Source: Bacteroides sp. (GTDB lineage Bacteria > Bacteroidota > Bacteroidia > Bacteroidales > Muribaculaceae). From it: a stretch of DNA of 64,000 nucleotides. Both the position numbers and the translations under genes were made by a program. The notes under the pieces were generated by a model. It did not search any database. It had not been told where the DNA came from and was given only the letters and a program-made list of their open reading frames with translations. Below are positions 40,207 through 42,662 of this stretch, one piece after another (position 1 is the first letter of the stretch; every line of letters starts with the position of its first letter). The stretch is from NCBI GenBank assembly GCA_014802015.1, contig JAAVDB010000026.1:1-64000 (forward strand), in the 5' to 3' direction.

Positions 40207-42312
40207 TCAGTCACCCATGGTGCGGAGCAGTTCCTCGTTGTCGTAAGTGCGCTCCATGCGGTCCTTGATGAACTCCATCGCCTCGATAGAGTTGCGGTCG
40301 CTCAGGAATCGGCGGAGTATCCACATGCGGTTGAGTGTCTCGTTGCGCAGCAGCAGATCGTCGCGGCGTGTGCTTGAGGCCATGATGTCCACGGCGGGGA
40401 ATATACGCTTGTTCGAGAGCTTGCGGTCAAGCTGGAGTTCCATATTGCCTGTGCCCTTGAACTCCTCAAAGATCACTTCGTCCATCTTGGAGCTTGTCTC
40501 GGTGAGTGCGGTGGCGATAATGGTCAGCGAACCCCCCCCCTCGATGTTGCGGGCAGCTCCGAAGAATCGTTTGGGTTTCTGGAGAGCGTTTGCATCGACA
40601 CCACCCGACAGGATTTTACCCGAAGCGGGTGCGCACGTGTTGTAGGCACGAGCCAGACGGGTGATCGAGTCGAGGAGTATCACTACATCGTGACCGCACT
40701 CCACCATGCGTTTTGCCTTTTCGAGCACGATCTGCGCGATGCGCACGTGGCGCTCGGCAGGTTCGTCGAATGTCGATGCTATGACTTCGGCATTGACACT
40801 GCGGCTCATGTCGGTCACCTCCTCTGGGCGTTCGTCGATGAGGAGGATCATGATATATGTCTCAGGATGATTCTCGGCGATGGCATTAGCTATATCCTTG
40901 AGCAGGATGGTCTTACCTGTTTTGGGCGGTGCGACGATAAGTCCGCGCTGACCCTTGCCGATGGGCGAGAACATGTCGACTACACGTGTCGACAGATTGT
41001 TGCTCTGTCCGGATGTGAGATCAAATTTTTCGTCCGGGAACAGAGGTGTCAGGTGCTCGAACGCCACACGATCACGTATGAACTCGGGAGAACGGCCGTT
41101 GACCGACAGTATGCGTGTGAGCGGGAAATACTTCTCGTCAGCGCGCGGAGGACGGACATTCGCTTCGACTACGTCGCCTGGGCGCAGACCGAACTGCTTG
41201 ATCTGCTGTTGTGTCACAAGCACGTCGTCGGGTGACGCGAGGTAATTGTAATCACTTGAGCGAAGGAATCCGTGTCCCTGAGGTTCGATTTCCAGTACGC
41301 CTGACGTGACGATGATATCGTCGAAATTGTACTGAGCCTGATAACGGGCCCTTTCTTCGGCATTTATATCGTTATTCTTATTGCGGTTTTTCTTGTTACG
41401 CTTGCCCTGCTGCTGTTGAGGCTGAAGTCTCTCCATGCCGGGCTCGCTGAGTGTTATTGGTGCCTCGGCGGCATTCTTGATGGACTGCTCCTTCTCCTGC
41501 TGTGAGCGCGGAGCGAATGTGCGGCCGCCGGCACGCGGGAAGAATGAGCCTAAAGATGAGTTCTCGGGACGGAGCATGTCGGCGCTCTCGTTTGCCCCAG
41601 GGCGGATAAAGACACCGCGGTGAGGCTCCTCGCTACGGGGCTGTCCGGCATTTTCGGTATGGGCCGGAAGTGCAGGCACCTCATTCATTACGGGACGGCT
41701 CTCGGGCTCGGCTTCCTGATTATTGTTGTTCTGATATTGTTCGCGGGCTGCGGCTTCACGCTCCATGATCTCCTGACGTGAGGGACGGCCACGTTTTCTT
41801 TTTACAGGCTGTTCTGCAGCGGGCTCTATAGGCTCAGGAGTATCCTCCAGTCTCATTTCCTCAGCCTTGACGGGGGCGATTGCCTCTTCCTGCGGTGTCT
41901 CGGTCTGAGGAGCGACATTCTCCACGGGTTGTTGATTCTTTGGTTTGCGACCACGACGCTTGGGTGCATTTGCCGGTTGAGCCTGAGACTCCTGAGCCTG
42001 GGCTTCGGGAGCAGGTGTGGCTGTCTGGGATGCCTCCTGCGGCTGCTCGGCCGGTGTTGCGGCCTGAGAGTCGGCTTCCTTCTTGCGGCGTTGCTTGGAG
42101 CCTTCGCCGTTATCTTTCTTTTTGCGGCGGGTCTTGTCCTGAGGCTGTGCATTAGCCGATGCGTTAGCTGCAAGATCACGAGCCTGTTTTTCGAGAATCT
42201 CATACACGAGGTTCTCTTTGTCTGTCAGATTTATTCTGCTTATACCTATGGCTTTGGCGGCTTCTTGCAGTCGCTCGTCGTCCATTTTGTTTAGTTCGTC
42301 GAAATTATACAT
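40207..42312 (-). CDS. rho: Transcription termination factor Rho with long insertion
   Basis: Hexameric RNA helicase/ATPase that ends transcription. The 701-residue protein has an N-terminal Rho_N helical domain (about 1-45), then a ~265-residue low-complexity insertion rich in Gln, Pro, Ala, Glu, Asn, Lys and Arg. The RNA-binding cold-shock-like domain ([18 protein letters not shown]) follows. The ATPase has Walker A APPKTGKT, Walker [17 protein letters not shown] and the [13 protein letters not shown] segment. E. coli Rho is 419 residues. Insertions here are known in Bacteroidota, and one has been reported to phase-separate. A nine-G run lies in the EGGGS codons. Confidence 0.97.
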
Positions 42313-42410
42313 ATAATATATGTGCGGGAATTTGAGGGCTATTATATTGTGAGATTAGGCACACATGCTGATGATGTGTACGCATGATAACAGTCGTAAA
42401 ATAATACGGA

Positions 42411-42602
42411 CTATGACAGTGATGAAGTTAATTTCCGATTCGGAGAGAGGTAAGCAGGACTGACATCCGGCATTAAATATATGAACCGAAAATGTCCTGT
42501 GTTAAAAGACAGCTTTAAATCAAAAGGATGATTGACAGTTGAATTTATTGAGTAAGGTGGGGGTGGTTGACGGTAATGAACGTATATTTTAAACGTATTC
42601 AT
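42411..42602 (-). CDS. Possible leader peptide upstream of rho (63 codons)
   Basis: An ORF in the predicted rho leader begins 22 bases after the expected transcription start and ends about 100 bases before rho. It encodes four consecutive prolines (RQPPPPYS), the kind of motif that stalls ribosomes without EF-P. Composition and lack of a known family leave coding unproven. It could be the uORF of an attenuation system or a chance ORF. Confidence 0.3.
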   Translation of the reverse strand: MNTFKIYVHYRQPPPPYSINSTVNHPFDLKLSFNTGHFRFIYLMPDVSPAYLSPNRKLTSSLS

Positions 42603-42630
42603 TATCTGACGTTCAACACTATCTTCGTTG

Positions 42631-42662
42631 CAAAGTTACAACCGTTTTTAATTTCTAACAAA
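42631..42662 (-). promoter_or_regulatory. Promoter of rho
   Basis: Minus-strand TAACTTTG (42638-42631) fits TAnnTTTG and TTTG (42662-42659) lies 20 bp upstream as the -33 element. The transcription start would be near 42624, giving a leader of about 310 bases. Confidence 0.7.

Follow-up and report, generated by a model that had tools for sequence, protein, structure and literature searches.

In E. coli, rho is autoregulated through attenuation in its leader (PMC6582626). Rho can likewise terminate rho early in the leader in Salmonella, where the sRNA SraL pairs with the leader and protects it (PMC6582626). Rho-dependent attenuation also occurs ahead of rho in B. subtilis: E. coli Rho revealed candidate Rut sites at the expected places, and when B. 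subtilis Rho was used for the selection, its autoregulated rho gene yielded no Rut peak (PMC12350095). Pseudomon-Rho, a structured rho-associated RNA, came from comparative genomics and is listed for Pseudomonas only (PMC2864571). We found no literature account of rho attenuation, or of how the amount of Rho is set, in Bacteroidota.

Here we analyzed the rho locus of a 64,000-nt stretch of DNA (the window), part of a 2.63-Mb genome from the genus that includes Duncaniella muris (Muribaculaceae). Its features are collected in Table 1. The upstream neighbor of rho is udk, which is divergent. A first-pass annotation of the sequence had placed a good promoter about 310 bases before rho. We observed a perfect TTTG-N20-TAACTTTG promoter, the sole perfect one within the rho-udk gap, which ends at 42631, 318 nt 5' of the rho ATG. 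Judging from its position, transcription would start near 42624. The resulting leader is far longer than the median promoter-defined leader in Duncaniella DNA (62 nt); the median 5' UTR in B. thetaiotaomicron is 32 nt (PMC7366714).

Table 1. Coordinates of the rho locus features in the window and of the leader RNA of Bacteroides rho loci
Feature	Position	Strand	Description
rho	40207..42312	-	701 aa; Pfam Rho_RNA_bind and ATP-synt_ab; long low-complexity insertion
rho leader RNA	42313..42625	-	~312 nt, promoter to rho ATG; 75 C versus 40 G
63-codon ORF, ...RQPPPPY...	42411..42602	-	Judged a chance ORF: unconserved, no longer than expected by chance, codon use non-coding
C-rich, G-poor tract, mostly unpaired (predicted)	42526..42580	-	Candidate rut-like Rho-loading site; 21 C, 2 G
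Predicted hairpin, 5' side of the C-rich tract	42567..42618	-	GUUGAACG...CGUCAAC with inner UAAUGAA...UUCAUUA; read directly and predicted by RNA folding
Bacteroidota sigma-AB promoter TTTG-N20-TAACTTTG	42631..42662	-	Perfect match; near-identical in all Duncaniella rho loci
Candidate leader RNA (model R1)	L313-L342, e.g., L334:1669-1758 (-), L299:510-598 (+)		5' stem and AUCCC; absent from Rfam 15

The same annotation had counted about 21 C to 2 G in the RNA of 42580-42526, and our recount returned exactly these numbers. Counting both strands, the window has 127,892 55-mers, of which only 23 reach this excess of C over G. In the predicted fold, the probability of being unpaired is 0.69 in the best 60-nt segment of the leader versus 0.51 over the whole leader. 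The inner stem of the hairpin on the 5' side of the tract is present in both the MFE and the centroid structures. No terminator-like site (0 sites) was found in the leader, and cmscan at E values up to 10 returned no rho-type Rfam family in the window, Pseudomon-Rho (RF01720) included. A strict spaced-C pattern had 0 matches in the window, though it is satisfied in G011. Prediction of rut sites is not reliable.

Does the leader persist in related species? Across 22 Duncaniella rho loci, with leader lengths taken from predicted promoters, the promoter, the leader length, and the base bias are conserved, whereas the leader sequence and the position of the C-rich segment are not. A strong promoter, most commonly of the form TTTGTT...TTGTAACTTTGCA, lies 240-530 nt upstream of rho in 22/22 loci (median 343). 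C exceeds G in the leaders of all 22 genes, with a mean excess of 0.094 per nt, and the bias is weak only in the subclade L015/L018/L020/L021. The upstream neighbor of rho varies, udk occupying that place in the three nearest relatives only, and the leader remains with rho. Even among the nearest relatives (76-80% Rho identity), leaders align poorly beyond the first ~30 nt. The 22 leaders split into 19 groups without a common 14-mer, no sequence or structure conserved between the groups was found, and the C-richest segment sits anywhere from 13% to 89% of the way along the leader. Since the 19 groups have no 14-mer in common, we conclude that the C bias is maintained independently of sequence. 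The C-richest 60 nt are more often unpaired in prediction than the leader that contains them (0.64 versus 0.51), partly as an effect of composition. The middle of the Duncaniella leaders (-220..-90) has less structure than the controls do (mean z of +0.29 versus -0.76), and in the last 100 nt no structural difference between leaders and controls was found.

In five D. muris-type species (L013, L014, L016, L017, and L019), the last ~45 nt before rho contain a C run, then a short hairpin, and then the AU-rich start of rho. The hairpins (CGGCAAG/CTTGCCG, CGGTAAG/CTTACCG, GCTGAA/TTCAGC) seemingly keep their pairing in some cases despite letter changes. By eye they covary; a pair count in that alignment gave no support.

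We asked how special the length and the C bias are, drawing Duncaniella controls from ~1.26 Mb, namely the stretches of three relatives together with the window. When 183 Duncaniella upstream gaps, each 250 nt or longer, were ranked for C excess, the three rho leaders among them took 3rd to 5th place. The full set of 22 rho leaders exceeded the 180 control gaps (Mann-Whitney p ~1e-9, nominal because the sequences are related). When only promoter-defined leaders longer than ~125 nt were considered (n = 19), the three rho leaders came 1st, 2nd, and 3rd; the other 16 averaged 0.004, and the difference gave a nominal p of 2e-5. All such p-values are nominal because the genomes are related; the best safeguard against this is that 19 of the groups cannot be aligned with one another. 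In the wider family and order, leaders are shorter and the bias is positive in ~80% of the cases with a recognizable promoter. The bias is positive in 33/34 Bacteroides rho leaders (p = 5e-12 against controls, nominal; control mean of -0.003).

The Bacteroides rho leaders (~145-195 nt) can be aligned. They have in common a 5' stem, CGUUGAA...UUCAAC, with an inner hairpin that varies, and an unpaired AUCCC, nearly invariant, that precedes an A/U-rich stretch. The outer helix is paired in 98.8% of cells, and two of its pairs are changed on both sides. This count of double-changed pairs was reached by 15 of 500 shuffles; because the covariation is modest, we call the RNA a candidate. A covariance model of the 5' stem and AUCCC built in the present analysis (R1) matched Bacteroides-type leaders only, including some outside its building set: L334 and L340, and more weakly L341, L333, and L337. 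None of eight Bacteroidaceae loci had a rho-type Rfam match at gathering score. In the window, R1 had no match at E values up to 10. Homology between the window leader and the Bacteroides motif was considered and rejected, as R1 gave nothing convincing in Muribaculaceae.

A long, open, C-rich, G-poor, and untranslated RNA that lies ahead of rho and is kept for its properties and not its sequence is how a Rho-loading region should look. We take autoregulation by attenuation as the most likely function, since the properties of the leader fit Rho loading and E. coli and B. subtilis provide precedents. On balance, the leader is probably an untranslated, degenerate region where Rho loads and attenuates transcription of its own gene. 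RNA polymerase would start ~312 nt before rho, and the nascent leader would expose long C-rich, G-poor, largely unpaired stretches not covered by ribosomes. When free Rho is abundant, it would load on the leader through YC-type primary-site contacts, catch the polymerase, and stop it ahead of rho or soon after it has entered the gene; with Rho in short supply, the polymerase would complete the rho mRNA. Of the regulatory leader proposed by the first-pass annotation, the rut-like, autoregulatory part thus gains comparative support from length, promoter, and C over G bias in 22/22 loci, and the stalling-peptide part fails, as described below.

The resemblance to E. coli lies in a long leader before rho in which C exceeds G, by 0.075 per nt over 255 nt of the rhoL region when the same measure is applied. 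Unlike the Duncaniella leaders, which have no conserved uORF, the E. coli leader carries an annotated leader peptide, rhoL. No rhoL-like leader ORF was recognized here, and rhoL is a feature of E. coli and not general to rho autoregulation. The promoter type and sequence are also unrelated to those of E. coli, and termination in the window is a prediction. Like Salmonella rho, the window gene would have a leader in which early termination by Rho is possible. B. subtilis belongs to another phylum, and attenuation is demonstrated there, whereas in the window we infer it. As to Pseudomon-Rho, neither the window nor the Bacteroides rho leaders matched an Rfam family of the rho type. The window locus is hence a plausible instance, new to Bacteroidota, of the rho-leader control known from E. 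coli and B. subtilis.

Might translation of the leader contribute? A 63-codon ORF with four consecutive prolines had been reported over the tract, and it is indeed there (42602-42411). A leader peptide stalled at PPPP that controls access to the rut site is nevertheless highly improbable. The longest ATG ORF in the leaders of close relatives has 14 codons in L003 and 3 codons in L004, and L006 has none. PPPP occurs in the window alone among the 22 leaders; PPP occurs in one other, within an unrelated ORF. An ORF as long arises in 12% of dinucleotide shuffles of the window leader (p = 0.12), and ATG ORFs in the 22 leaders range from none to 114 codons, a chance-level length. The codon score of the ORF is -0.29, which falls among chance ORFs and outside real genes (0.16 to 0.43), and the ORF had no Pfam match. 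From this sequence evidence, the ORF is most likely accidental. The alignment of rho leaders that had been suggested as a check therefore divides the original picture: the C over G bias is kept, and the ORF, PPPP, and the position and sequence of the C-rich stretch are not. The leader thus lacks the conserved uORF and conserved stall motif of a ribosome-stalling leader-peptide attenuator, and an intrinsic attenuator was rejected because no terminator was found (0 sites).

The leader might instead have no regulatory role, its length and C bias having arisen by drift of intergenic DNA downstream of a distant promoter. Single leaders of other genes do attain a comparable C excess in the upstream-gap comparison, and the leader sequence is unconserved. 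Under drift, however, some leaders should have become shorter or lost their bias, and promoter position and bias are maintained in 22/22 species across 19 unalignable groups; we regard drift as quite unlikely. A further reading is that the leader is a platform for another binder, be it an RNA-binding protein, an sRNA, or a metabolite, acting on translation or mRNA stability, with low G merely keeping the leader open. The conserved 5' stem and unpaired AUCCC of Bacteroides suggest more specificity than one would expect of a degenerate rut site, and the whole-leader fold of the window is stabler than shuffles (z of -2.8). Between Duncaniella groups, however, neither sequence nor structure is conserved, and the Bacteroides model matched none of the searched Muribaculaceae rho loci convincingly, so that we consider this reading unlikely. 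It is conceivable, and we put it forward tentatively, that Bacteroidota control rho in a way unlike E. coli: without a uORF, with a leader kept by composition in Muribaculaceae, and in Bacteroides with a structured RNA whose unpaired AUCCC would be dedicated to binding Rho or one of its partners. The leader would then set the amount of Rho and hence condensate formation.

Rho is essential in Gram-negative bacteria. In B. thetaiotaomicron, Rho condensation affects termination (PMC13269538), and for both reasons the amount of Rho matters. Under autoregulation by attenuation, a leader kept for composition and not sequence would provide a clean natural test of which RNA features Rho recognizes; the rho leader also offers a concrete locus for a reporter assay.

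Within rho itself, a run of 9 G (40532-40540, minus strand) encodes part of an IEGGGSL motif and places a slippage-prone homopolymer in an essential gene. The Rho insertion (41300-42200, minus strand) comprises ~250 low-complexity, Q/E/K/P-rich residues that separate the N-terminal part from the RNA-binding domain. It resembles the disordered region for which B. thetaiotaomicron Rho has been studied (PMC13269538). Total Rho length differs between relatives. A Muribaculaceae-type rho is also carried by four public MAG records whose titles name Staphylococcus, Lachnoclostridium, Clostridium, and Pseudoflavonifractor (L165, L174, L192, and L213); these records are probably mislabeled.
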